A stretch of 64,000 nucleotides of DNA from Laspinema sp. D2d (GTDB taxonomy: Bacteria; Cyanobacteriota; Cyanobacteriia; Cyanobacteriales; Laspinemataceae), in contig NZ_JAMXFC010000002.1 of the NCBI RefSeq assembly GCF_025370755.1, forward strand, positions 248,001 to 312,000, in the 5' to 3' direction. The notes under the pieces were generated by a model. It had not been told where the DNA came from and searched no databases. It was given only the letters and a program-made list of their open reading frames with translations. This document shows, in pieces, positions 49,097 through 64,000 of this stretch. Both the position numbers and the translations under genes were made by a program. Numbering within the stretch: the stretch's first letter is position 1; every line of letters starts with the position of its first letter.

Positions 49097-52000
49097 TTAG
49101 TCGGGTTGACAGAGGGAAGATTCTAGGGTGTGGGTGACATAATCATATAATCGATCGCAAGCTAGGTTTAAAAGTTTATCTAACTTTGAGCGATCGCCTT
49201 CACCATCTAAACTCTCTCGGGAAATATCCGCAATGGTCCACAGTTTCACCGTTTGGTCCCAACTAGCAGAAGCTAAAATCTGACTATCGGGACTAAAACT
49301 GCCCCCAGCAATCCGGTTTTGATGTCCCTCTAAAGTGGTTAAGAGGCGACCGTTACGACTCCAAATTTTCACGGTGCGATCGTCACTGGCCGAGGCTAAA
49401 ATCTTGCCATCAGATGAAAAACTCACCCATAAAACTTTATCTCGATGTCCCTCTAAGGTATTTAACAATTCTCCATTCCCACTCCAAATTTTCACGGTAT
49501 TATCATCGCTGGCGGTGGCGATCGCTGCTTCATCCGGAGAAAAACTGACACTATTCACTTCATCCAAATGTCCCTCTAAGGTAGCAGCTACCGTAAAGGT
49601 ATCGCTATTCCATAATTTCACCGTTTTGTCTGCACTGGTGGAGGCAATTAATTTCCCTTTTGGACTGAATTTTACCTCAAACACTCGTCCTTGATGGCCG
49701 GTTAAAGTTGCCAGAAGACTACCGTTTTGATTCCAAACTTTAACAGTCCCATCCCAACTGCCAGAAACTAGGCGATCGCCCTCGGGAGAAAAATTCACAC
49801 TATGCACTAGATCTGAATGTCCCCGCAGGGTCTGCAAAACCTTCCCTTGCTGGTCCCAAAGTTTGACGGTTTTATCCCGACTTGCGGAGGCGATTTCCTC
49901 TCCATCAGGAGAAAATGCCACCCCCTGGACCCAATCCTCATGCCCTCGCAGAGTTTTGACTAACGTCCCGTCTTGTTGCCACAGTTGCACCGTGTTATCC
50001 CGACTTGCGGAGGCCAAAATCTCGCCATCGGGGGAAAAACTCACCATATTGACCAAATCTCGATGTCCCTGAAACACCTCAATTAACCGAATTTCAGGAT
50101 TCCATAACATCGTTGTATTATCCCCACTCGCCGAGGCCAAGGTTTTGCCATCGGGGGACCAGGCAATGTCCCAGATGGCAGCACTATGGGCCGTTAAAGT
50201 CTTCAGCAGGGTCCTATCATAGACACTCCAGAGTTTAACGCTGTGGTCCTCACTCGCGGTCCCTAGCAAATGACCATCAGGGGACCAAATTACCCGAGTC
50301 ACCACATTGTCATGCGCTTTGAAAGAGGTGATTAATTGTCCCTCCAGAGTCCAGAGTTTGACCCGGCCATCCCCACTCGCTGTCGCCAAAGTTCGACCAT
50401 CGGGAGCAAAATTTACCGTAGAAACACCGCTTTGATGTCCGGTCAATGTTGTTAATAATTCCGCTTGTCCTTGGGAATTAATTTTCCAAAGTTTTACTTG
50501 ATTGTCATAACTGGCCGTCGCCAGCATTTCCCCATCGGGAGAGAAACTAATATCGGAGATTTCTTGGGTATGGGCCGTGAGAGTTTGCAGGAGAGTGGGT
50601 GGGGTTTGGGAATTCGGTTCAATGCGCCAAATTTTCGCAGTTTTATCCTTACTTCCCGTGACCAGTAAGTTACCTTGGGGACTGAAAGTCACGGCAAAAA
50701 CACTTCCTTGATGTCCGATAAGGGTATGACGAAGAGTGCCATCCATTCCCCACAATTTGACGCTGTGATTAGCATTCGCCGTGGCAAGGGTTTGTCCGTC
50801 CGGGAAAAACCCTAGTCCATAAACGCGATCGCCATGTTCTAAGGTATGCAGTAATTCCCCTTGCGCTGTCCACAAAATTACTGTACCATCAGCGCTGGCG
50901 GTGGCAAGGGTTTCTCCGTTGGGAGACCAAGCAACATCCCACACCCATCCGTGATGCCGATTTAAACTGTTCCTTTCTTGAAGATTGGCTAAAATAGTTT
51001 CTAAATTAAGGACTGCCGGGGCCATTAATTCCGAAGTTGCCCAATTGGATTGTAATTTTTGACCCGCCCTAATTGCATTAACTAACGCTTCGAGTTTTTC
51101 ATTGGAAGAGTTCCGAATTTTAGAAGCAGAAGTAAGGGCTTTAATTTCAGCGATTTCAGCTTGCCGTTTTTGCGAATTTGCCCACGCAATAATGGTGAGG
51201 GAAAGGAGGGAAACCGCACAGAGTCCCACTAATCCGAAAGTAATCACCCGTTGGGCTTTTTTGTAGGCGGTATCTAGGATTTGTTTGGCTTTTCGTTCTG
51301 CTTCTAAGGTGATTTCGGTTTCCAGTTTCGCTAATTCCAGAGATTTTTTCTCGCTGTTTTGACTAGCGGATAAAAACTGGTAATCGCGATCGCTTAAACT
51401 TTTATCAGCGGCCCAGTTTAGGGCATCCTGTAACGCCTGTCCCCGCAACAACCGGGAAGAATCTTCCTCGCCACTCTCCCACCAAGCGGCGATCGCCTCG
51501 GAATAGGGACGCAAAGTCGCCAACTGGTTTTCAATCCAGTCGGCATTAAAAATCTGTTGATAAATTCGGTTAAATACGGTTAAATTGCCCTGGTGTTTGA
51601 CGATTAACCCCGAGAGACGTAGTTGAGTTTGTTCGGGACTATTATCCGCCGGGTAACCTTCGGGGTGCGCTGTTAAAATTTTTTGATATAATCCCAATCG
51701 TCGGGGGGTGCGTTTTTCATCACTCAGGAGGCGATCGCGAATTGTTTTTAAATGGTCCGGTTCATCCTGAGATTCCCAATTATCCAGCAGGTGCATTTTA
51801 ATCAATCCCCCTACATTCGGTTGAGAATTATGAGCTTTATCAACCAATAATTTACATAATTTTTGGGTTAAAAAGGGTTGTCCCCCTGTCCAATCTAAAA
51901 TTTCCGATAACACAGTTTCAGGGTAAGTAAATTGCTGAGATAGTCCCGGAAGTAATGCGGGTTTTGCTTCAGCTAAAGTAAACCCATGTAAGGCAATCGC

Positions 52001-52597
52001 TTGTCCAATATTAAACGGGGTTCGTTGTTTGTCGGCGATTAAATCCGACGGGGTGGCAACTCCTAACAAACAAAAAGTCAGACGATTGTAAGAGGGATGA
52101 TGGGCCCGTTGATTGTAACAAGCACGAATAAAGGCAAAAAAATCATCCGTGGGAAAATTTAAACTGAGGATACTGTCAATTTCATCGATAAAAATGACAA
52201 TCGTTCCCGGAATTTGCACCAAAACCACGGTTTCAATAAACTCCCGAAATCGCCCCAAGGGGGATAACCAATCGCGATCGCGCCACCAAGACCCCAAATT
52301 CACCTCAAGCTGCAAATCCAGGGTCAGACTGCGAAGCATATTCGCATACCACTGAGTGGAAGTCCCCTGCTGGATATTATCCATTGAAATATCAATCACA
52401 CTACAGGCAACCCCTGCTTGTTTTAGCTGCTGCATCACCTGGACCCGCAAGCTAGATTTTCCCGTTTGTCGAGAATTCAATACATAACAAAACTGCCCAG
52501 ATTTTAATCCTTCATATAGCTCAAAATCCGCCTTTCTTTTCACATAAGTCGGGGCATTTTCAGGTAATGTTCCGGAAAAAATATAGGAGTCTGTCAT
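49097..52597 (-). CDS. AAA-like (STAND-type) ATPase with 14 WD40 repeats
   Basis: The 1166-residue protein has an N-terminal AAA-like domain (~1-330) of the cyanobacterial AAA_35 type, with Walker A variant NSRQTGKSS near 44, TIVIFIDEIDSIL (Walker B) and a GQPFLTQKLCKLL lid motif. A membrane segment follows (ITFGLVGLCAVSLLSLTIIA, ~450-470). Then come 14 WD40 repeats, each with an H-x-x-x-V/I...FSPDG...D-x-x-V-K-L-W core, enough for two seven-bladed propellers. Such proteins are signalling or conflict-response switches in filamentous cyanobacteria; ligands are unknown. A second AAA-like gene lies upstream on the same strand. Confidence 0.9.
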   Translation of the reverse strand: MTDSYIFSGTLPENAPTYVKRKADFELYEGLKSGQFCYVLNSRQTGKSSLRVQVMQQLKQAGVACSVIDISMDNIQQGTSTQWYANMLRSLTLDLQLEVNLGSWWRDRDWLSPLGRFREFIETVVLVQIPGTIVIFIDEIDSILSLNFPTDDFFAFIRACYNQRAHHPSYNRLTFCLLGVATPSDLIADKQRTPFNIGQAIALHGFTLAEAKPALLPGLSQQFTYPETVLSEILDWTGGQPFLTQKLCKLLVDKAHNSQPNVGGLIKMHLLDNWESQDEPDHLKTIRDRLLSDEKRTPRRLGLYQKILTAHPEGYPADNSPEQTQLRLSGLIVKHQGNLTVFNRIYQQIFNADWIENQLATLRPYSEAIAAWWESGEEDSSRLLRGQALQDALNWAADKSLSDRDYQFLSASQNSEKKSLELAKLETEITLEAERKAKQILDTAYKKAQRVITFGLVGLCAVSLLSLTIIAWANSQKRQAEIAEIKALTSASKIRNSSNEKLEALVNAIRAGQKLQSNWATSELMAPAVLNLETILANLQERNSLNRHHGWVWDVAWSPNGETLATASADGTVILWTAQGELLHTLEHGDRVYGLGFFPDGQTLATANANHSVKLWGMDGTLRHTLIGHQGSVFAVTFSPQGNLLVTGSKDKTAKIWRIEPNSQTPPTLLQTLTAHTQEISDISFSPDGEMLATASYDNQVKLWKINSQGQAELLTTLTGHQSGVSTVNFAPDGRTLATASGDGRVKLWTLEGQLITSFKAHDNVVTRVIWSPDGHLLGTASEDHSVKLWSVYDRTLLKTLTAHSAAIWDIAWSPDGKTLASASGDNTTMLWNPEIRLIEVFQGHRDLVNMVSFSPDGEILASASRDNTVQLWQQDGTLVKTLRGHEDWVQGVAFSPDGEEIASASRDKTVKLWDQQGKVLQTLRGHSDLVHSVNFSPEGDRLVSGSWDGTVKVWNQNGSLLATLTGHQGRVFEVKFSPKGKLIASTSADKTVKLWNSDTFTVAATLEGHLDEVNSVSFSPDEAAIATASDDNTVKIWSGNGELLNTLEGHRDKVLWVSFSSDGKILASASDDRTVKIWSRNGRLLTTLEGHQNRIAGGSFSPDSQILASASWDQTVKLWTIADISRESLDGEGDRSKLDKLLNLACDRLYDYVTHTLESSLCQPD

Positions 52598-52630
52598 GAT
52601 TGATTTACTAGATTAGATTGGGATTAAATG

Positions 52631-52806
52631 GGGAGGACCCCCCCTAGCCCCCCCTTGCTAAGGGGGGGAATTAAAATGAGGATTAAGATTATTTTCCTTA
52701 CTATTTCCAGTCCCCTCCCCTTAGCAAGGGGAGGGTTAGGGTGGGGTCCCCTCCGATTGCCAAGGGAGGGTTAGGGTGGGGTTCCCTCCGATTGCCAAGG
52801 GAGGAA
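52631..52806. repeat. Cluster of inverted and tandem repeats
   Basis: An inverted repeat of CCCCCTTGCTAAGGGGG type (near 52650) recurs as CCCCTTAGCAAGGGG (near 52717), followed by two tandem ~35-bp units (52731 and 52766) containing AGGGTTAGGGTGGGGT and CCTCCGATTGCCAAGG. The block lies between the two AAA-like genes and resembles REP-type repeats. Confidence 0.75.
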
Positions 52807-52866
52807 TTAAAACACAATTTTATGGATTGGATAGTTTTACCCTTAAATCAGACAATTAATTTATTA

Positions 52867-54264
52867 CTAATTAACTGCCAAACGCACCGAAAAATACTGT
52901 TGATATAACTGAAATCGAGGAGTAACATTATTATCCTGCAACTGAACCAACCCCATGCTATATAATTTAAAAGCGCGTTCCGAAGGAATTTTAACGGGCT
53001 TATTTGCCATCACCACATCGCGAAAAGCAGCAGCTAATTCGGGATGATGTTGGAGATTCCATAAATGTTGGCGGAGATGGTCACTAAATGGCCCTGCTTC
53101 TGTTGGTGCAATCTGGGAAAATTGTTCTAACGTCATGGGTTGACGGCACAAAAAATCCAGGGATTTTCGGATTAAATAGGGATGGCCCCCGATCGCACTC
53201 ATCAACTGACGAACTTCTACCTCAGTATCCCAGTTTAAGCCATACCGTTGAGCTAAATCCTGCACCTGTAAAGCTGTAAATTCCGGTAACGGAAAGACAG
53301 CGCCCACGTTGGCAAGGGGAGAATGATTGATATCCAGGGCGCTATAAACTTCCGTAGAATGGACCACAATTAATCGCAGTTGTTTCCAGATATCCCCCCG
53401 GCGATCGCTGCGTCTGGCGATATCATACCAGGCGCGCAATAATCGACAAAAATCGTTAGCAATTTCGGGATGTTCAAACACAACATCAACTTTGTCTAAA
53501 GCTAAGACTAACGGAGTGGGTAATTGAGATAAAATATACTCCTCAAAATAAACCGTACAATTATTATTACAGCCAAAAATATCGTCCCAATAATTTGATA
53601 ATTGATTCGGTAATCCCGATAATTGACCCACGCTGGCGCAAAACCACTGCAAGAAGGTCCGCAGGTCCGCAAATACGGTACTATCAGCCAAGTCAAAACT
53701 TAACGTAACGGTGTGATAATTGGCAGTTCGGGCCACTTCTAGGATGCGATCGAGTAGGGAGGTTTTGCCCATTTGTTGGGGCGCTTTAATCCGAATCAAT
53801 GCCCCCGCTTGGGCGATCGCCACTTGACATCGGGCTTCTATCGGTGGACGGTGAACATAAAACCGTGAATCCAAAGGGACTGACCCTTCTGAACCGTCTA
53901 GCATAGGTTCCTTGACCGCTTCTGAGGTCACTAAACCCTCGGGTTTCAGCAAAGATCCTACTCCCATCGGGGAAGGCTTTAACATTTCTTTCCAATGTCG
54001 TTCTAACGCCGTTTTAAAGTTTTTCTTACTGACTTTCTCCCCTAATGAATCCGATAAGCGTTGCCAGAAATCTTTACCGACCATTCGGTGTAAATAATTA
54101 GCGGCATATTCAGTATTTTCGGCAATTTCTTCGTAAGTTTTATCTTGCCATGCACCCCGAAAAATCATCATTTCAATGTCGCTGATATGTTTTCCCGTTC
54201 TGGCAAAAATTACTTGATCGGCTATTTTGAATGCTTCTTCAAAATTGATAGGAGTTTCCTGCAT
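52867..54264 (-). CDS. AAA-like ATPase with N-terminal helical (vMAP-type HTH) domain
   Basis: This is a 465-residue protein. The first ~95 residues (IADQVIFARTGKHISDIEMM, YEEIAENTEYAANYLHRMVG) look like the helix-turn-helix found at the N-terminus of vWA-MoxR-associated and AAA-like proteins in cyanobacteria. The ATPase (~130-400) has Walker A variant KAPQQMGKTSLL, LVLALDKVDVVF (Walker B) and GGHPYLIRKSL (lid). A winged-helix tail ends the chain (KIPSERAFKLYSMGLVQLQ). It is the same family as the WD40 protein downstream, 269 bp away and on the same strand. The role is probably in regulation or defence-type signalling. Confidence 0.82.
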   Translation of the reverse strand: MQETPINFEEAFKIADQVIFARTGKHISDIEMMIFRGAWQDKTYEEIAENTEYAANYLHRMVGKDFWQRLSDSLGEKVSKKNFKTALERHWKEMLKPSPMGVGSLLKPEGLVTSEAVKEPMLDGSEGSVPLDSRFYVHRPPIEARCQVAIAQAGALIRIKAPQQMGKTSLLDRILEVARTANYHTVTLSFDLADSTVFADLRTFLQWFCASVGQLSGLPNQLSNYWDDIFGCNNNCTVYFEEYILSQLPTPLVLALDKVDVVFEHPEIANDFCRLLRAWYDIARRSDRRGDIWKQLRLIVVHSTEVYSALDINHSPLANVGAVFPLPEFTALQVQDLAQRYGLNWDTEVEVRQLMSAIGGHPYLIRKSLDFLCRQPMTLEQFSQIAPTEAGPFSDHLRQHLWNLQHHPELAAAFRDVVMANKPVKIPSERAFKLYSMGLVQLQDNNVTPRFQLYQQYFSVRLAVN

Positions 54265-54475: not shown

Positions 54476-54673
54476 AACAATCTCCCGGCGGAGTTGGAAA
54501 AAATTTTTTTCTGTCCGGATTTGCTAGGTCAGGAAAAGTAATAAAAAGTCATCAGCGATCGCCGTCCCAGGAACCTCATGTCAAAGTTTCATGACTTTTT
54601 GGCATTTCCGAGGTCATAAAAGGTATCGGCGATCGCGGATACTATCATATACAGTACACCTGGGAGGGTGCTG

Positions 54674-55054
54674 ATGTATTACGCTTACCTCACTGTCCCA
54701 AATCACGAGTTTGAAGAACTATTTCCCCAGGGAGTGCCTACCTTTGGGTTCACCCCGGATGATTTCATAGAAATTTATGATGGATGCACCGGCGAGTTGA
54801 TGGATATTGAACCGGCCTTTCGCGTGAACCGCGCTGGGTTGACCTGGGACCAAGAACTCGCTCTGTTCCAAGAATACACTGCAATGATGAATGATCCTCT
54901 ATTTGTCCAAGGAATGTTTAGGTTATTGGACAGTGGTTGGTTTACTATTTCCGAGTCCCAAGTTCAGTCGGTCGTGTGGCGCGATCGCGAAGAAATTTTT
55001 TGCTTTCAATATCATAAAAATAAAACAATGGATGCTAATCCTTTATTGACTTAG
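54674..55054 (+). CDS. Hypothetical 126-aa protein
   Basis: I chose ATG 54674, which has GGGAGG six bases upstream (a GTG lies six bases earlier). The product is acidic and aromatic-rich (MYYAYLTVPNHEFEELFPQG, DDFIEIYDGCTGELMD) with no signal peptide or membrane segment. Codon use looks genuine. I do not recognise a family. It stands alone, 520 bp before the Rieske cluster. Confidence 0.6.
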   Translation: MYYAYLTVPNHEFEELFPQGVPTFGFTPDDFIEIYDGCTGELMDIEPAFRVNRAGLTWDQELALFQEYTAMMNDPLFVQGMFRLLDSGWFTISESQVQSVVWRDREEIFCFQYHKNKTMDANPLLT

Positions 55055-55574
55055 CCTGGTGTTCATTCAATGCCCTATCCATTGTTCCCCTATCTCTCCA
55101 GACCAGCGGGTGAGATGAGGAATTTTTTCTTAGGTAAAATGTACCCAAGGAAGGGGATTGGCTTAGGGCCGTGGGTTCTGGTCGAACTCCCGAACCACTT
55201 AAACTCTTGCTAATCTGAACCATAGAGACCCGCTTGTTTCTCCTTCATTTTCATTTATGCTTATTCACAATAACAGAAGTGAAACCGGGTAAGGGACTGG
55301 GTTCTGGGCCAGTTTATGAACTGTCTGCGGCAGCGATCGCCGGAGTCTGTTTTATCAGTTTTAATTAATCCATTGATCCATTGCCGATTCAAATTTATCA
55401 TAGATTAAGGATATTAAGGATCAATGATTCCTCGCCAAAACCCTTAACGGGGATGAAGATTTGATGAGGCTGAACCTCCCTAATAACAAGGGGATTGCCT
55501 GTTTAAATCTATTGGGTATAATTGATATCAAAGCTTAATTCATAGTTTAAATCTTATTCAAGGAAACCATTTCA
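55055..55574. other. 520-bp region upstream of the oxygenase cluster
   Basis: No gene. It probably contains the promoter of the cluster that starts at 55575. The last ~130 bp are AT-rich, but I cannot name a specific operator. Confidence 0.5.
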
Positions 55575-56636
55575 GTGATTCAATTCGAGTCTCAACCCCT
55601 AGCCGATTTAGCCCAAAGCCTACGGACCGTTCGTCAAGCCAAAACCTTTAATAATCCCGAACGATTTATCGAAGGGTGGTACTGGGCCATCCGGTCTAAG
55701 GACCTAAAAATCGGTCATGTCAAACCTATCACTCTACAAGGTCGGAACCTGGCAATTTATCGAGGAACCGATGGCAAAGTTGTCGCCTTAGATGCCTACT
55801 GTCCCCACATGGGCGCTCACCTGGCTGAAGGCAAAGTTGATGGCAATGGATTACGCTGTTTTTTCCACAATTGGAAATATGATAATCGAGGTCTCTGTGT
55901 CGAAAGTCCGGGCCTAGATAGAACGATTCCCGCCAAAGTTCGGTCTTGGCCTACGGCTGAAAACTATGGTTTAGTCTGGGTTTGGACCGGCGAGACTCCC
56001 CGACATCCCGTGCCTTATGTTCCCGAATTAGCGGGTAAAGACTGTGATGCTGGCTTTGGGTTAGGGTTTCGTAAAAACTGTCATCCGAATGTAGTGATGA
56101 TTAATGCGATCGATGCCCATCATTTTAATACGGTTCATAACCTACCCGTTGAGGTTAAATTTGAGAAAAAAAACCTCAACGAAAATGCCATTATTTTTAA
56201 CAATATTACCCGAGGGGGAGACCAATCTTGGTTTATCAAGCTGATTCGTCCCCTTTATAAAAATGAAATTACCTACAAGATGTGTTATTGGTATGGCAGT
56301 ACCGGGACCGTGACCGTAGGGCCAGACTTTTTACACTTTCATATTATGTTTAGTATCCGCCTCAAAGCCGATGGAAAAGCCGAAGGTCAAACGATCGCCA
56401 TTACCGAGAAACGCTCAGGTTTATGGGGATGGCTGTTTAATCGAATTGTCCTGTGGATTACCTTGCGGGTGGGGAATTACTTTGCCAAAGGGGATACTCA
56501 AGTATTTGAAACCATTAAATTTGATTTAAAAACCCCAACTATAGCCGATCAAGCGATTATCGAGTTTATCGAACAAGTAGAAACACAAAAACCGCTCAAA
56601 TGGGAAACCTGGGAGACAGTTGAGCATCTGTCATAA
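55575..56636 (+). CDS. Rieske non-heme iron oxygenase 1
   Basis: The 353-residue protein starts at GTG 55575. The Rieske [2Fe-2S] motif is CPHMGAHLAEGK...CFFHNW (C-x-H near 76-78, C-x2-H about 17 residues later). The catalytic iron site is NAIDAHHFNTVH (D-x2-H-x4-H type), followed by a variable substrate domain with a hydrophobic C-terminal segment (WGWLFNRIVLWITLRVG). It resembles KshA/PaO-like terminal oxygenases of cyanobacteria that hydroxylate or desaturate hydrophobic substrates using electrons from a ferredoxin. It is the first gene of a co-directional set; the di-iron gene starts 47 bp downstream. Confidence 0.93.
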   Translation: MIQFESQPLADLAQSLRTVRQAKTFNNPERFIEGWYWAIRSKDLKIGHVKPITLQGRNLAIYRGTDGKVVALDAYCPHMGAHLAEGKVDGNGLRCFFHNWKYDNRGLCVESPGLDRTIPAKVRSWPTAENYGLVWVWTGETPRHPVPYVPELAGKDCDAGFGLGFRKNCHPNVVMINAIDAHHFNTVHNLPVEVKFEKKNLNENAIIFNNITRGGDQSWFIKLIRPLYKNEITYKMCYWYGSTGTVTVGPDFLHFHIMFSIRLKADGKAEGQTIAITEKRSGLWGWLFNRIVLWITLRVGNYFAKGDTQVFETIKFDLKTPTIADQAIIEFIEQVETQKPLKWETWETVEHLS

Positions 56637-56683
56637 TCCCGACGACTCCGCGAAAAACCTGGGCTAGACTACGCCATAATGGA

Positions 56684-57631
56684 ATGGTTGCCACGGAGTC
56701 ACCGATGAGTCAATCTTTATTTACTACGGCGCGGTTTGACTTACCTCATGTTACGGAAGGCGATAAATTGCATCGCCTTCTTTCTGCTGCTTTAAAAAGT
56801 AGAATCGGCCATGAGTTGCCAATCCCAGAGGCAGTCACCCCGGCCTATTGGAATTCATCTTATTTTGGCCTAGATCAGGTGAAAATTTTTCAGGATGCCA
56901 CCGGGGAAGAACAACAGAAAATTTTGCATTACTGTAGCAACGCACTTCTGGAAGAAGCCTACTTTGTAGAAAAAGCAGGCGTGGGATATATGGCGAAAAT
57001 GGTCATGTTGGCGGAAACTACAGAAGAACGGATGTTGTATGGCTTATTTGCAGCGGATGAAGCCACCCATTTAGCCCAAATTCGGCCATTTTTAGGCGAT
57101 CGCAACCCCGTGACAACGGGCGATCGCTTTTTAGAATTACTGGCTGAAATTGTGGAAATGGAGGATAAAAGCGTCTTAATTTTTGTGATTCAGGTGGTGT
57201 TAGAAGGATGGGGACTCAGCCATTATCGCCACCTCGCTAACGACTGTTGCGATCGCGAATTAACCCAAATGTTTCGCGGATTTCTCGATGCTGAGGCGCG
57301 CCATCATAGTACCGGCGTCACCTTGTGCGATCGCCATCCCATTCCCCCGCAATCCCAGAGTGCGATCGTTGAAATCCTCACCTCATTCTTGCAGATGGTC
57401 CAAGTAGGACCCCAACGAGTCGTTCAGGCAATCGCACAAGTTAAAGGGGATTTATCCCGTCCCCAACAAATCAAAATTTTTCAAGAATTAGATACCGAAA
57501 CCCACAGCGGCACTCGCCTCCAACTTCTGCGATCGCTCCTCCGCTCTGACCCTACTCATTCTATCATCAATCACCTAGAAGAACGGGGGTCATTTAAACC
57601 CTTTTCCCCAGAACAATGCGTTTTTCTATAA
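56684..57631 (+). CDS. Ferritin-like di-iron oxygenase candidate
   Basis: The 315-residue protein, all helical, carries the four-helix di-iron signature: Glu in LLEEAYFVEKAG near 89-90, D-E-A-T-H near 124-128 (E-x2-H), Glu in VLEGWGLSHY near 172, and D-A-E-A-R-H-H near 201 (E-x2-H). The spacing suits a ferritin-like oxygenase or oxidase that activates O2. The start is either ATG 56684 or ATG 56705 (MSQSLFTT). I do not know the specific family; neighbours imply a tailoring oxidation of the cluster's product. It is not a storage ferritin, being twice as long. Confidence 0.78.
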   Translation: MVATESPMSQSLFTTARFDLPHVTEGDKLHRLLSAALKSRIGHELPIPEAVTPAYWNSSYFGLDQVKIFQDATGEEQQKILHYCSNALLEEAYFVEKAGVGYMAKMVMLAETTEERMLYGLFAADEATHLAQIRPFLGDRNPVTTGDRFLELLAEIVEMEDKSVLIFVIQVVLEGWGLSHYRHLANDCCDRELTQMFRGFLDAEARHHSTGVTLCDRHPIPPQSQSAIVEILTSFLQMVQVGPQRVVQAIAQVKGDLSRPQQIKIFQELDTETHSGTRLQLLRSLLRSDPTHSIINHLEERGSFKPFSPEQCVFL

Positions 57632-57698
57632 AAACTTATCCTCAATATTTGTAATAACGACTTCCATCGTTCTTCCCCATCCCTCATTCATCCCCATT

Positions 57699-58928
57699 AT
57701 GAACAACCTTTTCAACGAACCTAAACCTAATACCCTCCTAGAACACGAAAAAATCTACCGAAAACTCCAACTCAACTACCACCGCAATCAACAACAGGAC
57801 CAAACCGCATCAATTGATCAAGCTGCCAACGCCTTCTCCTATGCCAATTGCCAAAACGAATACTGGAACCCGGAAGAATTTTCCCTCCTCTACGGAACCC
57901 CACTTTGGGACCAATCTACCCCCAGCCAAAAGCTAATACTCAATCACCTCTACTGGGTCGCTTACTACTCCCAAATCATCTCCGCAGAAATTGCCACAAT
58001 CTTATTTAATCAAACCAGCGCTGCTGGACTTTATGCCCAGGAAGACTTTCGCTTAGTTTGCGATATGCTTGACCTCGAATCTGCCCAAGAACGGGCGCAT
58101 ATTAACGCTTTTAAGACCATTTCAGAACAAGTAGAAGCGGCATTATTTGGCAAACGGATCTTCACCTATCCCATGCGTGGACCTTACACCGAAACAATGG
58201 TTCATGCCAATACCAACGCCCTTAAAACCTGGTGGAAACAACTACAACTCCGCTGTTTTGGAATGCTTTCTTCCGGGAATACATTTTTAGCCTGTCAGTA
58301 TTTTACCGTGCGGGGACTGCGAACTTTAAACGGAAAATTAGTCCAGCATAAATTAAGCCAATATTATCAAAATCATCTGGACCAAGAAAATGCTCCAATT
58401 CCAGCTAAAATTTCTTATTATCATTTTTTAGATGAAAGCTTTCATTTTAATAGTTCGACCCTGTTATCCCATGAAGTAGTAACCTGTTTGAAAAAGCCCA
58501 CCTCATTCGAGACATTTGTCGCCAACTTGGGTTTGCAAGGATGTCAAAAAGATCATGCTCATTTTTCCGTAGCAATTAATGGGATATTTTGGTATGATCC
58601 GGCCCTCTATTCCGCGATTTATGAACTCTTGCGATCGCCCGTCTTTGCCCTGAGTGATCCCGATGCCAAACAGATGATGCAGGATTGCTTTACTCAGGAA
58701 ACTGAAGGACTCCATCGCAGTTATAAAACCCATCAAGAGGCGAGGGCATCCTATCAAGTCTATCTTGAAAAAGTGGACTATGCCTGGAAAATTAACCGGG
58801 AAATGTCCATTATGGCAGCGACTTCGATTCCTCGCTATCTAGCCACCCAAAAAAAAGCGCTCTCTCAGGGTTTTGCGGCCCCCATTCCCCCTCCTTCTCG
58901 TCCTTTAAAATCCCTCGCTTTGCGTTAA
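57699..58928 (+). CDS. AurF-like di-iron N-oxygenase candidate
   Basis: This is a 409-residue protein. Candidate iron ligands are Glu in SAEIA near 96, E-R-A-H near 131-134 (E-x2-H) and H-F-L-D-E-S-F-H near 240-247, which reproduces the H-x3-E-x2-H arrangement of AurF, the aryl-amine N-oxygenase. The position where AurF has its remaining Glu may be Gln200 here (ACQYFTVRG), which would be unusual. The first ~40 residues are polar, and the C-terminus is Pro-rich. AurF-type enzymes convert amines to nitro or hydroxylamine groups; the substrate here is unknown. It lies 31 bp before the second Rieske gene. Confidence 0.65.
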   Translation: MNNLFNEPKPNTLLEHEKIYRKLQLNYHRNQQQDQTASIDQAANAFSYANCQNEYWNPEEFSLLYGTPLWDQSTPSQKLILNHLYWVAYYSQIISAEIATILFNQTSAAGLYAQEDFRLVCDMLDLESAQERAHINAFKTISEQVEAALFGKRIFTYPMRGPYTETMVHANTNALKTWWKQLQLRCFGMLSSGNTFLACQYFTVRGLRTLNGKLVQHKLSQYYQNHLDQENAPIPAKISYYHFLDESFHFNSSTLLSHEVVTCLKKPTSFETFVANLGLQGCQKDHAHFSVAINGIFWYDPALYSAIYELLRSPVFALSDPDAKQMMQDCFTQETEGLHRSYKTHQEARASYQVYLEKVDYAWKINREMSIMAATSIPRYLATQKKALSQGFAAPIPPPSRPLKSLALR

Positions 58929-58959
58929 AATTTATCTATTTTATAGTGATTAAAGTTCC

Positions 58960-60009
58960 ATGAATTCCAGGCAAAATCGAAATACCCAACCTCGAACCGA
59001 GATGCACATCTTTAACAACTGGGATGTGGTTGCCAAAGGATGGTATATTGCTTGTCCTAGTAAAGAAATAGCCCGAGGCAAACTGAAATCATTGGAAGTC
59101 TGTGGACAACAAATTGTTTTGTTTCGGGGAGAAGATGGCAAAGTTCGGGCTTTAGATGCCTATTGTCCCCATCTTGGGACTGACTTAGGAATTGGGCGAG
59201 TGGAGGGGAATTTAATCCGCTGTTTTTTCCATCATTGGGCGTTTGATGAAGAGGGAACTTGTCAGGATATTCCTTGTCAATCCAGCATTCCTGAAAAAGC
59301 CCGATTACAATCTTATGCTACCGATGAAAAATATGGAATGATTTGGGTTTATCCCGATGCAACCGCACCGGAAGGGGTGGCAGAATTCGATGAACTCAAG
59401 GGAAAAACGGTGATTGCCGTTCGCGATCGCCCGTTTGAACGCACCTGCCATCATCACATTTGCATGATGAATGGAATTGATGCCCAACATCTGCAAACGG
59501 TGCATAAAGTTAATATTAATATGAATCTGACCTTACAGGAAAATGAATCCGGTAGTCTCATGGATTTTACCCTTAGTGGTGAATTTCCTAACACCACCCC
59601 CCGAGAACGGTTGGCCCGGAAATTTTTAGGACAAAATTATGCTTATAGCATGAGATATCAAAATGCTTGCTTGGGTCTATTAACTACGATGAAAAATGTT
59701 AAATTGATTCCGCCCTTACACATGATTTATGCTTATCTTCCCCTGGAACCGGGCAAAATTAAGGTGCAAAATATTTATGTAGCCGCCCGTCGTCCGGGAA
59801 TTTTGGGTTGGGTATTGACTTACTTTTTATTGTTTTGTACGAAGATGCTTTATTTATTTTTGAAGGGAGAAGATGGGAAGATTTATGACAATATTCGGTA
59901 CAATCCCAATGCTTTGCTAAGTATTGATCGCCCGTTGGCCGAGTACATGAAATATGTCGAACGATTAACTCCTTCTAGTTGGTCTAAAATGCCGGTTAAG
60001 GGGGAGTAA
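58960..60009 (+). CDS. Rieske non-heme iron oxygenase 2
   Basis: The 349-residue protein is similar in layout to oxygenase 1. The Rieske motif is CPHLGTDLGIGRVEG...CFFHHW (Cys near 69), and the mononuclear iron motif is NGIDAQHLQTVH. The C-terminal domain has a membrane-like stretch (ILGWVLTYFLLFCTKMLYLF). These two enzymes share the D-A-Y-C-P-H context and probably arose by duplication. It depends on a ferredoxin, and one is encoded 104 bp downstream. Confidence 0.93.
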   Translation: MNSRQNRNTQPRTEMHIFNNWDVVAKGWYIACPSKEIARGKLKSLEVCGQQIVLFRGEDGKVRALDAYCPHLGTDLGIGRVEGNLIRCFFHHWAFDEEGTCQDIPCQSSIPEKARLQSYATDEKYGMIWVYPDATAPEGVAEFDELKGKTVIAVRDRPFERTCHHHICMMNGIDAQHLQTVHKVNINMNLTLQENESGSLMDFTLSGEFPNTTPRERLARKFLGQNYAYSMRYQNACLGLLTTMKNVKLIPPLHMIYAYLPLEPGKIKVQNIYVAARRPGILGWVLTYFLLFCTKMLYLFLKGEDGKIYDNIRYNPNALLSIDRPLAEYMKYVERLTPSSWSKMPVKGE

Positions 60010-60113
60010 AGTTTTAGAGATTATGGGGATTATTTAAGGTGAAATTAGCCGGAGACAGAGCCTCCAATTGGGCATTCCCAGGCAGAGCATATTAAATTAA
60101 AGGATGGGCTTTT

Positions 60114-60401
60114 ATGAAACGGTGTTTTGTTAGATTTCCAGGGACGAATTATCCAGCGATCGCTTTACCTCAACATGACAATTTAGCTAATTATTTAACC
60201 GTACAAAATTCAACGGTTTTGTTTGGATGTCGGACGGGAATTTGTGGGACTTGTTTGTGTGTGATTGAGGGAGATATTCTTCCAGCGAATTTGGAAGAAC
60301 GGGAGGTTTTAGATATTTTAGCACCGGGATATCCTCAAGCGCGGTTAGCTTGTCAAGTAGATGTAACGAACGATATTGCGATCGCCCCTTTTGAGGAATA
60401 G
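60114..60401 (+). CDS. [2Fe-2S] ferredoxin, plant-type
   Basis: The 95-residue protein binds a [2Fe-2S] cluster through FGCRTGICGTC (C-x4-C-x2-C) and a fourth Cys in RLACQVD, the plant-type pattern. It likely delivers electrons to the Rieske oxygenases of the cluster; no ferredoxin reductase is encoded in the window, so a general reductase may serve. The next Rieske gene starts five bases after its stop, indicating one transcript. Confidence 0.93.
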   Translation: MKRCFVRFPGTNYPAIALPQHDNLANYLTVQNSTVLFGCRTGICGTCLCVIEGDILPANLEEREVLDILAPGYPQARLACQVDVTNDIAIAPFEE

Positions 60402-60406
60402 CAATT

Positions 60407-61429
60407 ATGGGATTTGAAGACTTTTGGTATGTGGTAGCACTGAGTGAGCAATTGAAGCCTAAAACAGTGCTTTCGCGCACGATTTTGGGGGAATGGTTGG
60501 CGATTTTTCGGGATGAACAAGGGGAAGTAGTGGCATTACGCGATCGCTGTATGCACCGCAATAGTCGCCTTTCTCGGGGTAAAGTCTGCCAGGGGACTTT
60601 GCATTGTCCCTATCATGGATGGGTTTATGATAAATCGGGTCAAGTGGTAGCGGTTCCTGCGGAAGGAGAACAGTTTAAAACCCTTGCCTCTCGTCGGACT
60701 CATTCTTATTCAAGTCAAGAAAAAGATGGGTATATTTATGTCCGACTAGCGGAGAATTCTACGCTCAATCTTGACCCTTTTCCCATGCCTTACTATGGCA
60801 AACCAGGATGGGAAACTGTGCGGGTAATTAACCGATTTCGCAACAATGTTACCAATTGTGCCGAAAATTTTATTGATATTCCGCACACCGCCTCAGTGCA
60901 TCCTGGAGTCTTTCGTAAACCGCAGCAAAAACAGTTAGAAATGATGGTGGAACGCCGGGATGGGTCGGTATTTGTCACCTATCGGAATGAAACTACCAAT
61001 TTGGGATGGTATTCGCGGTTTTTAAATCCTCAAGGCGGGGAAATTTACCATACGGACTGTTTTTCCATGCCTAATGTAACCAGTGTAGAATATCACTTGG
61101 GAGAAAATCGCCATTTTTTTATTACCAGTCAATCGATTCCCGAAACAGAAGATTCGACCTTAGTTTATACCGATGTGACCTTTAATTATGGGTTTTGGAA
61201 TAAAATGGCTCGTCCTTTTGTGCGCTGGACTGCCCAGTATATTATTAAACAAGATATAGAAATTTTAGGGATTCAGCAAGAGGTAATTGAGAAATACGGA
61301 ACTCAATTTGCCAATACGCCAGCGGATACTATTCATGTTTTTGTTGAATCCATTCGCAAGGCCATTTCAGCCGGGGAAGACCCGAGATTACTTCCCCAAA
61401 AATCTGTAACAGTTAACTTTTGGGTTTAG
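60407..61429 (+). CDS. Rieske non-heme iron oxygenase 3
   Basis: The 340-residue protein has its Rieske motif near residue 48: CMHRNSRLSRGKVCQG...CPYHGW. The iron motif is NFIDIPHTASVH (D-x2-H-x4-H). The shorter N-terminus and C-P-Y-H-G-W sequence put it nearer the phenylpropionate/vanillate-demethylase type than the first two. It follows the ferredoxin by five bases, which suggests that it is the ferredoxin's closest partner. Confidence 0.93.
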   Translation: MGFEDFWYVVALSEQLKPKTVLSRTILGEWLAIFRDEQGEVVALRDRCMHRNSRLSRGKVCQGTLHCPYHGWVYDKSGQVVAVPAEGEQFKTLASRRTHSYSSQEKDGYIYVRLAENSTLNLDPFPMPYYGKPGWETVRVINRFRNNVTNCAENFIDIPHTASVHPGVFRKPQQKQLEMMVERRDGSVFVTYRNETTNLGWYSRFLNPQGGEIYHTDCFSMPNVTSVEYHLGENRHFFITSQSIPETEDSTLVYTDVTFNYGFWNKMARPFVRWTAQYIIKQDIEILGIQQEVIEKYGTQFANTPADTIHVFVESIRKAISAGEDPRLLPQKSVTVNFWV

Positions 61430-61455
61430 ATTTTATTCACCGTATCAGGAAATTT

Positions 61456-62181
61456 ATGGCTATTTTTATTACATTTGTCACTCTGTTAATTTTGACGTTT
61501 GCCCGAACGGAACAACGGGCTAATTTCAAGGCTAAATCTTGTCAGGATTGGCTTTTAGATGCAATTGGCTTATGCTTTCAAGGAATTTTAATACCTGTCC
61601 TGCAAATTATCCTAATTTATCAAGTGTATCAGCATTTTCTCCCCGAAAGTCGCGGGATTTTAAACTTACATCCTCTCCTGGCTTTTGGCCTCAGTTTTGT
61701 TGGGGTCGATTACTTGTATTATTGGAATCATCGATTGCTCCATAGTCGGAGGTTCTGGCGGTTGCATCTGGTTCATCATACCATGACTGAACGGCAAGTT
61801 CTCGGTACTTCTCGCAATACTTTATGGACCAGTTTTTTAATTGTTTATCTCTGGATTCATGCTCTCTTTATTTATCTAATCCAAGACGCAAACATTTATA
61901 TAATTGGAGTAACTTTAACCTCAATTTTAGATTTATGGCGGCATAGTGAAATTGAACCCTTACCGGACACATTCTTGCATCGCTTTCTCTCTCCTTGGTT
62001 GATTTTACCGAGGGATCATGCATGGCATCATAGTCGGGAGTCGATGGGGGTTAACTATGGGGCAAATTTAAAACTCTGGGACCGATGGCATGGCACAAAT
62101 TATGACAGTAACACCACACCGAAGGCTTTAGGAATTACCACGAATTTAACCTTATTTCAAAAGTTAATGTGGCCGTTTTAA
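61456..62181 (+). CDS. Fatty-acid-hydroxylase/sterol-desaturase-type membrane protein
   Basis: I chose ATG 61456 (241 aa, AGGA five to eight bases upstream). The frame also opens at a TTG that overlaps the previous stop. Four hydrophobic helices surround three His clusters: HRLLHSRRFWRLHLVHH and HAWHHSRE. This is the eight-His di-iron motif of the family, which hydroxylates or desaturates lipids in the membrane. It may act on a long-chain or terpenoid intermediate made by this cluster. Confidence 0.9.
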   Translation: MAIFITFVTLLILTFARTEQRANFKAKSCQDWLLDAIGLCFQGILIPVLQIILIYQVYQHFLPESRGILNLHPLLAFGLSFVGVDYLYYWNHRLLHSRRFWRLHLVHHTMTERQVLGTSRNTLWTSFLIVYLWIHALFIYLIQDANIYIIGVTLTSILDLWRHSEIEPLPDTFLHRFLSPWLILPRDHAWHHSRESMGVNYGANLKLWDRWHGTNYDSNTTPKALGITTNLTLFQKLMWPF

Positions 62182-62220
62182 CTTAGGGTTTTAGCCCTGT
62201 TTAATAAAAAATAAACTTCA

Positions 62221-62850
62221 ATGACCTTACTCAGTCTGATTCTTTCCTTCTTTCCAGCGATCGTGATGGGAATGACCGCCGCATCTTTTCTCTGGATTTG
62301 TCTTTCACCGGGTATTTTAGGGGTTTTAACCTTAATCTTTTCTTTGTATGGATTTCCCGTTATAGTTTATCGGATTCACAATTATTTTTATCCATTAAAA
62401 GAAGGAATTTCTTACTTAAAAGGCCCAGATTATTCTCCTTGGTGGGGAGGTCATCAAATTCAGGCTATTTATATTACGTTTCCGGCGATTGAATCGGTGT
62501 TACGGCTGATTCCCGGGGCTTTTTCTCTGTGGTTGAGATTGTGGGGGGCAAAAATTGGCCGAGGGATTTATTGGATGCCGATTTTAGAACTGGCCGATCG
62601 CGGATTATTGGAAGTAGGCGATCGCACTATTGTCGGTCATCGAGTGGGGATTTATAGTCATGTTATTAAACCAAAACATAACAACTTAATGCTGTATGTA
62701 AAATCCGTCAAAATTGGCACTGATGTGTTTGTCGGTTCCGGGACCCATTTTGGGCCGGGAGTCACTATCGCCAATGGGGCTTATCTTCCCATTGCCACCC
62801 ATCTTTATCCGAATACCAAAGTCACCCCCCGCAAGCATTCGACGGATTAA
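62221..62850 (+). CDS. Left-handed beta-helix acyltransferase-like membrane protein
   Basis: The 209-residue protein has two N-terminal membrane helices (LLSLILSFFPAIVMGMTAAS, LGVLTLIFSLYGFPVIVY), then a hexapeptide-repeat region (LEVGDRTIVGHRVGIYSHVI, IGTDVFVGSGTHFGPGVTIA) typical of left-handed beta-helix acyltransferases. The helix is short, about three to four coils. It could transfer an acyl group to the cluster product, or be a scaffold. It starts 39 bp after the hydroxylase gene. Confidence 0.75.
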   Translation: MTLLSLILSFFPAIVMGMTAASFLWICLSPGILGVLTLIFSLYGFPVIVYRIHNYFYPLKEGISYLKGPDYSPWWGGHQIQAIYITFPAIESVLRLIPGAFSLWLRLWGAKIGRGIYWMPILELADRGLLEVGDRTIVGHRVGIYSHVIKPKHNNLMLYVKSVKIGTDVFVGSGTHFGPGVTIANGAYLPIATHLYPNTKVTPRKHSTD

Positions 62851-63044
62851 ATTTATATAAAAAGCGGATTTTATATAAATTATGCTGTAGAGATAATTAA
62901 TCACTCATGATAGTCTTCTCCTTTGGGAGATTAACCCATTAAAAGTGTCTTTAACTCCTTTTGAGTTTTAGACATAATTTTCCTAAAATTGTATTTTTCT
63001 AATTTTCTCTAATCATTGATTCATTCCATTAGAATCGGATAACT

Positions 63045-64000
63045 ATGATGCGTCCTATTATTCAACTCTTTTCTTTTTTACTCGGGTTGTATGCCTATAA
63101 GTTTTCCCAAGCTTTAAAAAACCCTCGGAGGTCTCAGCGGTCTGTCCAACAAGAAATTTATCGAAATTTTCTAGGCAGTGACTATGGAAAATCCCTGGGT
63201 TTAAGTTCCCATCCTAAAGCTTCCTTAAATGAACAATGGAATCAGATTCCAGTTGTAGACTATGAGGACATTCAACCCTGGACAGAACCTGTTAATCTCG
63301 CATCAAACCTGGCCTCCGATCAACCCGGTAACCCGACCTCCTTGCCGGGAAAGTCTCTGACCCCGGAACCAATTTTATTTTATGAAAAAACCTCTGGGAG
63401 TCGCGGACCCGCTAAATGGATTCCTTACACCCAATCCCTACGTTCTAGCTTTAACTCCATGTTTTGTGTGTGGGTGCATGATCTGATAGAAAATGGCCCG
63501 AAATTTGAGACAGGAAAATTTTATTTCTGTATTTCCCCCCAACTGAAAGACCCCCAATTACTTAATGAAATATCTGCCGGACTGGCCGATGATTCTGAAT
63601 ATTTAGATGGATGGTTGCGGGCTTTACTGAGTTTGGTATTAGTCGCACCCCCTCGACTGAAATACCTCCAAGACCCCGATGAATTTAAAGAACAGTTAAG
63701 TTTGGAACTGTTATGCGAAGACCGCTTAGAAGCGATTTCCATTTGGAGTCCCAGTTTTCTAAAAGTGCTGTTGGATTATATAAAAACCCATCGGGAGTCG
63801 CTGGTAGAGAAATTGGGTCCTAAAATCTCTCACCAGCGCGGGCAACTGTTGAGGCAGTCGCCGATTTCCTGGACTGAAATTTGGCCGAAACTGAAACTGA
63901 TTTCCTGTTGGGATAGCAGTCACTCTCGGGAACAAGCCGAATTTCTGCAAAAACTTTTTCCCGGGGTGATGGTACAGGGGAAAGGATTGCTCGCAACTGA
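63045..64000 (+). CDS. GH3-family acyl-adenylating enzyme (partial)
   Basis: The gene starts at ATG 63045 (or 63048) and runs off the window after about 318 codons. GH3 features seen: the N-terminal helix, YKFSQALKNPRRSQRS, NFLGSDYGKSLGL, then FYEKTSGSRGPAKWIPYTQS, which is the ATP-binding P-loop-like motif of adenylating GH3 proteins. Known GH3 enzymes join amino acids to carboxylic acids (jasmonate, indole-acetate). The gene is co-directional with the oxygenases after a 194-bp gap, so it may activate the cluster's acid. The C-terminal half is not visible. Confidence 0.88.
   Translation, partial: MMRPIIQLFSFLLGLYAYKFSQALKNPRRSQRSVQQEIYRNFLGSDYGKSLGLSSHPKASLNEQWNQIPVVDYEDIQPWTEPVNLASNLASDQPGNPTSLPGKSLTPEPILFYEKTSGSRGPAKWIPYTQSLRSSFNSMFCVWVHDLIENGPKFETGKFYFCISPQLKDPQLLNEISAGLADDSEYLDGWLRALLSLVLVAPPRLKYLQDPDEFKEQLSLELLCEDRLEAISIWSPSFLKVLLDYIKTHRESLVEKLGPKISHQRGQLLRQSPISWTEIWPKLKLISCWDSSHSREQAEFLQKLFPGVMVQGKGLLAT

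Follow-up and report, generated by a model that had tools for sequence, protein, structure and literature searches.

Near the end of the 64,000-nt window analysed here, a stretch of DNA from the cyanobacterium Laspinema sp. D2d (contig NZ_JAMXFC010000002.1, positions 248,001 to 312,000), lies a row of genes for iron-dependent oxidative enzymes, and the question it raises is whether these genes act together and, if so, on what. An initial annotation had described an unassigned oxidative cluster of at least nine same-direction genes with short gaps, and open reading frame calls and Pfam confirm this description, the title of which omitted the hexapeptide transferase. We find that the nine genes are, near certainly, one unit, and that the gene taken for an AurF-like N-oxygenase instead encodes a CylC-type dimetal-halogenase homologue. 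We tentatively suggest a fatty-acyl chain as the substrate. All nine open reading frames are on the + strand and span 55575-64691, with GH3 overrunning the window by 691 bp:

55575..56636, +: R1, Rieske oxygenase, 353 aa (Pfam match, conserved Rieske ligands)
56684..57631, +: FerrA, predicted ferritin-like di-iron oxidase, 315 aa (conserved ligands, model fold)
57699..58928, +: CylC-type dimetal-halogenase homologue, Gln subclass, 409 aa (motifs, alignment, tree)
58960..60009, +: R2, Rieske oxygenase, 349 aa (Pfam match; R1 paralogue, 31% identity)
60114..60401, +: Fd, 2Fe-2S ferredoxin, 95 aa (Pfam match; C39, C44, C47, C80)
60407..61429, +: R3, Rieske oxygenase, 340 aa (Pfam match; related to SxtT/DdmC/VanA)
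61420..62181, +: FAH, fatty-acid-hydroxylase family, 253 aa (Pfam match; histidine boxes intact)
62221..62850, +: Hexa, hexapeptide-repeat (acyl)transferase, 209 aa (Pfam match)
63045..64000, continuing to window-equivalent 64691, +: GH3 adenylating synthetase, 548 aa (Pfam match, nucleotide motifs)

In gene order from R1 to GH3, the intergenic gaps are 47, 67, 31, 104, 5, -10 (an overlap), 39 and 194 bp. Pfam matches above cut-off are Rieske (three times), Fer2, FA_hydroxylase, Hexapep and GH3. The G+C content of the cluster is 43.0%, vs 47.1% in the remaining window.

Conservation and spread of the nine genes

A scan of named genomes for relatives of the CylC-type protein gave 120 loci, of which the best 80 were kept; 51 of them have approximately 10 kb on both sides (full-flank loci), and matches below 60 bits were dropped from the family counts. 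Comparing gene order in other cyanobacteria, as the initial annotation had proposed, shows that the unit is conserved: 34 of the 51 full-flank loci contain the complete set of nine families and a further 8 lack only one, so that 42/51 have at least eight; 3 loci have seven families and the other 6 have fewer, the minimum being two (L052). The families also keep their neighbours. Counting adjacency among the nine families only (so other genes may intervene) and in loci that have both members, same-strand neighbours are R3 and FAH in 60/60, FAH and Hexa in 56/56, Hexa and GH3 in 52/52, Fd and R3 in 65/66, R1 and FerrA in 71/73, and FerrA and CylC in 71/75. Adjacency is weaker for CylC and R2 (29/61) and for CylC and Fd (44/74), partly because R2 moves.

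Within the genus, the CylC-type gene is found in 8/8 genomes, source included, and six of the seven genus-mates have the nine genes in identical order. The seventh (G001) has a short contig that stops inside R3, with GH3 on a separate contig. Among named genomes, the nearest matches to the CylC-type protein (91-92%) come from Phormidium pseudopriestleyi, two Oscillatoria and two Laspinema, while plasmid sequences hold relatives only at 28-34%. Between the CylC-type protein and each of the eight others, pairwise distances are correlated (r 0.86 to 0.96, with no species-tree control).

Genes that are not side by side are nevertheless retained together. The cluster-type CylC and a close GH3 occur in identical sets of genomes (17 of 59 relatives; in the sample of the class, 22 of 291), both being absent from the other 42 and 269. 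A GH3 was called close when its best piece reached at least 340 bits; lower-scoring ones are other paralogues (best 257 bits in the 59-genome set and 160 in the 291-genome set). Seven of the 22 cluster-type genomes of the class were checked at residue level and 15 were told apart by low two-piece scores, and the genomes are mutually related, which means that the counts cannot be read as independent trials. In five genomes that lack some of the genes next to CylC, GH3 and R3 were located elsewhere in 5/5: in G048, GH3 is 953 kb away on the same contig, whereas the separation in G040, where each piece stops at the end of a contig, may stem from a break in the assembly. G020, a genus-mate of G048, has no close Fd homologue, no CylC-type gene and no close GH3.

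Six of the 80 loci, all in metagenome-assembled genomes (MAGs), come from outside the cyanobacteria: Planctomycetota, Elusimicrobiota, Myxococcota (three) and Bdellovibrionota. Their G+C content is 53-73% in five and 37% in one, rearranged gene orders are found among them, and their CylC sequences form one clade within the cluster-type tree (support 97/98). The Bacteriovoracaceae locus packs the nine genes, an SDR gene and the tenth partner described below into approximately 10 kb as two opposing blocks, and the Planctomycetota contig has only R1, FerrA, CylC, Fd and R3, followed by unrelated-looking genes. The cluster is thus patchy yet widespread in cyanobacteria (most of those sampled are without it) and recurs in unrelated phyla. 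Chance is ruled out as an explanation for this gene company across cyanobacteria and four other phyla, and the retention of nine or ten genes, whether side by side or dispersed, suggests that the product is of value to its makers.

The cluster was called unassigned in the initial annotation, which holds for its product but not for its type, catalogued in 2014 (PMC4284462) and 2021 (PMC8406957). The locus belongs to the "Rieske-containing" orphan CylC class of Eusebio et al. 2021 (PMC8406957), 36 clusters from Nostocales and Oscillatoriales with two to four Rieske genes, a sterol-desaturase/fatty-acid-hydroxylase gene, a single CylC, no carrier protein and no known product; ours has three Rieske genes, one FAH and one CylC-type gene. 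The network cluster of that study also takes in CylC homologues of proteobacteria and Melainabacteria. In contrast to the present analysis, that paper has 0 occurrences of GH3, and the parts of it consulted show no Gln signature, GH3 co-retention or whole non-cyanobacterial clusters.

The earlier description is cluster f around fed6/ssl2559, presented only as a ferredoxin neighbourhood (PMC4284462). Its order, rieske-ho-ho-fed6-pobA-sterol desaturase-ho, equals R1-FerrA-CylC-Fd-R3-FAH-Hexa, but the Laspinema locus has R2 as an extra gene between CylC and Fd. The Fd-R3 gap is at least 700 bp in 20 of 64 measured loci, which fits variant f' of the same paper. As a separate observation, an additional short frame resembling R3 sits between Fd and the full-length R3 in L060, L089, L098 (~13.2 kb) and L091 (11.5 kb). 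Literature searches, from which most subscription papers and all preprints were out of reach, found no product for this cluster type.

Fd probably belongs to the Fed6 group. An Fd homologue (50%) in genome G304 follows genes for a response regulator, CheW and a methyl-accepting chemotaxis protein (MCP), and ssl2559 is located downstream of the sll1291 cluster, which we take to be of the same response-regulator/CheW/MCP kind. The Synechocystis copies presumably carry the tags sll0263-sll0266, and the gene so tagged sll0266 goes down when iron is scarce. Two PriA-type (Synechocystis-like) genomes have an Fd and R3 pair apart from R1-FerrA-CylC (L171:8923-10222 and L178:9084-10392), one pair standing after response-regulator, CheW and MCP genes and the other near the gene for the NADH dehydrogenase 49-kDa subunit. 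The gene fed6 has been called essential and not deletable (PMC4284462); it has also been fully deleted, with photoautotrophic growth like the wild type (PMC8887894). We make no claim of essentiality. Phosphorus limitation induces ssl2559, less so in a phoB mutant, and an operon with the upstream cluster is possible (PMC11126600); this response gives at most mild support to a phosphorus-free lipid.

The CylC-type protein and its glutamine

The protein at 57699..58928, the only one of CylC type encoded in the source genome, carries E97, Q130-E131-xx-H134, Q216 and H242-xx-D245-E246-xx-H249. Its QERAH and HFLDESFH are the diiron-halogenase signatures QExxH and HxxDExxH, which it shares, along with the first-helix Glu, with CylC and NocO (PMC12101540). 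These eight residues are present in the protein itself and in 80/80 loci. The ninth residue, at the position of NocO E252 and AurF E196, is Gln (Q216) in 80/80 loci and also in 7/7 cluster-type sequences of the class sample (one of them the window's own), vs Glu in 4/4 and 23/23 rows of other CylC relatives (26 different genes). In a tree of 57 chosen rows, for which the bootstrap had not settled, the cluster type separates from the other CylC relatives as its own clade with 100/100 support and a branch length of 2.04. The clade includes the G048 copy, whose locus has PriA, so the PriA-containing type falls within it, in keeping with the Rieske-containing class of PMC8406957.

On this sequence evidence, the protein is a CylC-type dimetal-halogenase homologue and not an N-oxygenase. 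The initial annotation had expected AurF-like N-oxygenation, leading to nitro or N-oxide products, and AurF is indeed the top Foldseek match (2jcd, E 0.03), although of a poor model (pLDDT 59.5), and the Pfam AurF family does match at 23.4 bits, below its cut-off of 29.6. The predicted active site does not fit that expectation: N-oxygenation by this protein is unlikely because the CylC motif pair is present in 80/80 loci and Gln stands at both the AurF D135 and E196 positions (numbering from PMC12101540). We therefore drop this claim and regard a nitro or N-oxide product as very improbable.

Halogenation is a harder call. Chlorination is the known reaction of the diiron-halogenase family (PMC12101540), and we give chlorination by the cluster's enzyme about an even chance. 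NocO works with the fatty-acyl-AMP ligase (FAAL) NocL and the acyl carrier protein (ACP) NocM, and diiron halogenases so far work on ACP-bound chains. The present cluster differs in its Gln, its separate clade and its lack of such partners: no FAAL or ACP was found among the ten window proteins scanned, while the remaining neighbours in the 80 loci were grouped by similarity and scanned in part. Nocuolin, the first candidate considered, was accordingly set aside, NocL and NocM counterparts being absent here. Diiron halogenases are sought as catalysts for C-H chlorination, and in the Gln subclass they would have a relative that needs no carrier.

Partner enzymes, substrate and proposed pathway

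The other enzymes look intact; a residue is called conserved where 95% of rows or more keep it. R1, R2 and R3 conserve their Rieske Cys/His ligands and the iron-site His (in R1, Rieske C76/H78/C95/H98 and mononuclear-iron H183/H188), and the four Fd Cys and the FAH histidine boxes are conserved as well. FerrA conserves E91, E96, E126xxH129, E174 and E204xxH207. It has no Pfam family match, and a homologue matches Ferritin_2 below cut-off (21.9 vs 24.7). The FerrA model (pLDDT 82) aligns best with cyanobacterial aldehyde-deformylating oxygenase (Z 17.6, 206 residues, 3.2 Å) and nearly as well with methane monooxygenase hydroxylase and ribonucleotide reductase R2; such a model-based match indicates fold class, not function. 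Taken together with the CylC-type protein, these enzymes support the several O2-dependent oxidations that had been predicted for the cluster.

The earlier prediction that GH3 would catalyse amide or ester formation is also supported. GH3 keeps its three nucleotide motifs, TSGSRGPAK, LLATE and GGLYRYRIGD (GLYRYRLGD in plant JAR1). OlsH, a bacterial GH3 with shown activity, joins fatty acids to ornithine as an amide in the formation of ornithine lipids in planctomycetes (PMC12493201). OlsH and the cluster's enzyme are both bacterial GH3 proteins of the adenylating kind, and the three nucleotide motifs can be recognised in each, but here oxygenases surround the gene and the score against the OlsH model is only 20.9 bits. 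Hexa is probably membrane-anchored, judging its N-terminus by eye.

Only two groups of leftover genes recur in at least 10 of the 80 loci, and neither is a known alkyl-halide user. The first, a tenth partner, is a protein of approximately 246 aa in 62/80 loci (e.g., L076:5943-6683), with an unlinked homologue in the source genome (C54:239608-240258, 42%). It has no Pfam or NCBIfam match and looks GNAT-like by eye only. The second, an Amidohydro_3/Mpo1-like group, is linked in 29/80 loci, with an Mpo1-size frame in 27 and both domains within a single fused frame in L065 (15033-17228) and L117 (7088-9421); the two genes are often beside R2 (L078:494-2200 and L078:5428-5886). When four Mpo1-type frames were run against Pfam, those of L078, L117 and L065 matched and that of L120 did not. 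Mpo1 is a 2-hydroxy-fatty-acid dioxygenase family, and fatty-acyl chains are the substrates of both the FAH and the Mpo1-like family. For this reason, and because OlsH joins fatty acids to ornithine, we favour fatty acids as the substrate.

Our proposal, which we hold tentatively and at somewhat less than an even chance, is that a fatty-acyl chain is oxidised, and possibly chlorinated, without a carrier protein and that GH3 completes the pathway by forming an amide. The starting point would be a pre-existing fatty acid or fatty-acyl lipid, and the end point an oxidised, aminolipid-like product. The ferredoxin would serve as electron donor for the three Rieske oxygenases and probably for the di-iron enzymes too. 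The CylC-type enzyme would attack an unactivated C-H bond, most likely adding chlorine that may or may not be retained in the product, and FerrA, FAH and R1-R3 would add oxygen or oxidise further. GH3 would use ATP to adenylate the carboxyl group and couple it to an amine or amino acid, giving an amide or, with lower probability, an ester, and Hexa may add an acyl or acetyl group. We infer the fatty-acyl substrate, chlorination, amide product, amine partner and order of steps.

Several findings weigh against this proposal. Q216 stands in place of a Glu whose Ala mutant is inactive in NocO, and the enzyme may therefore have lost or changed its halogenating activity. R2 is absent from 6/51 and GH3 from 12/51 full-flank loci. 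The likeness of GH3 to OlsH and of FAH to OlsE is superfamily-level only: these are their sole NCBIfam matches, at 20.9 bits against a cut-off of 620 and 54.5 against 475. No substrate-activation protein is reported for the Rieske-containing class in PMC8406957, a paper that makes no mention of GH3. Lastly, PF00494 (phytoene/squalene synthase) genes, present in the source genome and in 5/6 non-cyanobacterial carriers, make an isoprenoid substrate possible.

The point about Q216 leads to a variant in which the pathway is otherwise as proposed and the CylC-type enzyme is a hydroxylase, desaturase or oxidative-cyclisation enzyme that does not halogenate. We consider this a serious, if somewhat doubtful, possibility. 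It would account for the strict division between Gln in the cluster type (80/80 and 7/7) and Glu elsewhere (27/27), for the long-branched separate clade and for the lack of a known alkyl-halide user among the recurrent partners, and the Ala mutant of NocO at E252 is inactive (PMC12101540). On the other hand, Gln would leave a coordination site free, which is what has been proposed for chloride binding at this position in NocO, the other eight residues are invariant, and the same paper counts a small Gln subset, its gene context not named, within the halogenase family.

The choice of substrate has its own rivals. A carotenoid or other isoprenoid in place of the fatty acid is, in our view, clearly unlikely: besides the PF00494 genes, the best NCBIfam match of R1, R2 and R3 is 4beta-methylsterol monooxygenase (well below cut-off), but no hopene cyclase was found in the genus, the Planctomycetota carrier, a MAG of unstated completeness, has no PF00494, and the relatives named above for GH3, FAH and the Mpo1-like proteins act on fatty acids. 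Hopanoid tailoring was considered for the sterol-enzyme likeness of the Rieske proteins and FAH, and was rejected; a hopanoid substrate is very unlikely because the genus lacks hopene cyclase, none being found in its eight genomes, source included (two of the eight are 87% and 92% complete), all of which carry the CylC-type gene. Turnover of chlorophyll or another photosynthetic pigment draws on the fact that PaO/CAO-type Rieske oxygenases act on chlorophylls, but it is barely conceivable here, since ChlL/BchL exceeds its cut-off in 0/6 non-cyanobacterial carriers (MAGs of unstated completeness) and most sampled cyanobacteria are without the cluster. Chlorophyll or carotenoid turnover was the alternative role named in the initial annotation, and its chlorophyll half is thus very unlikely while its carotenoid half, with PF00494 in 5/6 carriers, is possible.

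If the fatty-acyl proposal is correct, the GH3 link makes an "unknown oxidative cluster" directly testable via acyl amides. A broader idea, which we regard as speculative and rather unlikely, is a widespread and so far undescribed lipid class shared by cyanobacteria and at least four other phyla: polyoxygenated acyl amides, chlorinated outright or only cryptically, the products of a carrier-free diiron halogenase, marked by an invariant Gln at the chloride site, that is coupled to a GH3 amide synthetase.

Surroundings of the cluster

As suggested in the initial annotation, the sequence past 64000 was inspected. The contig runs 3255 bp beyond the window, where GH3 is completed at 64691 and is followed by a CAP-domain protein of 788 aa with long RTX-type calcium-binding repeats (window-equivalent 64795-67161) and then by the contig end. 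CylK carries a calcium-binding domain, and the 788-aa protein was considered as a CylK-like partner. It was rejected: it is found in the six genus-mates with contigs long enough and in no cluster locus of another family, and the sole other CAP/RTX match is weak, repeat-type (33%) and in a locus without the cluster (L041). We conclude that it is probably outside the pathway.

Upstream of R1, a 128-aa protein without a family match is encoded at 54668-55054; it is 94-99% identical among genus-mates and was not seen in the other-family loci fetched, i.e., it was found in the genus only. Just before it, 49097-54264 on the - strand encodes a 1166-aa WD40-repeat protein and a 465-aa AAA_35 protein. 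One further feature lies between the 128-aa gene and R1:

55495..55522, +: weak promoter-like site, TTGCCT-16-TATAAT, approximately 50 bp before R1

The region contains 30 promoter-like sites, compared with 21.8 (standard deviation 4.1) in shuffled sequences, a count which does not prove function.

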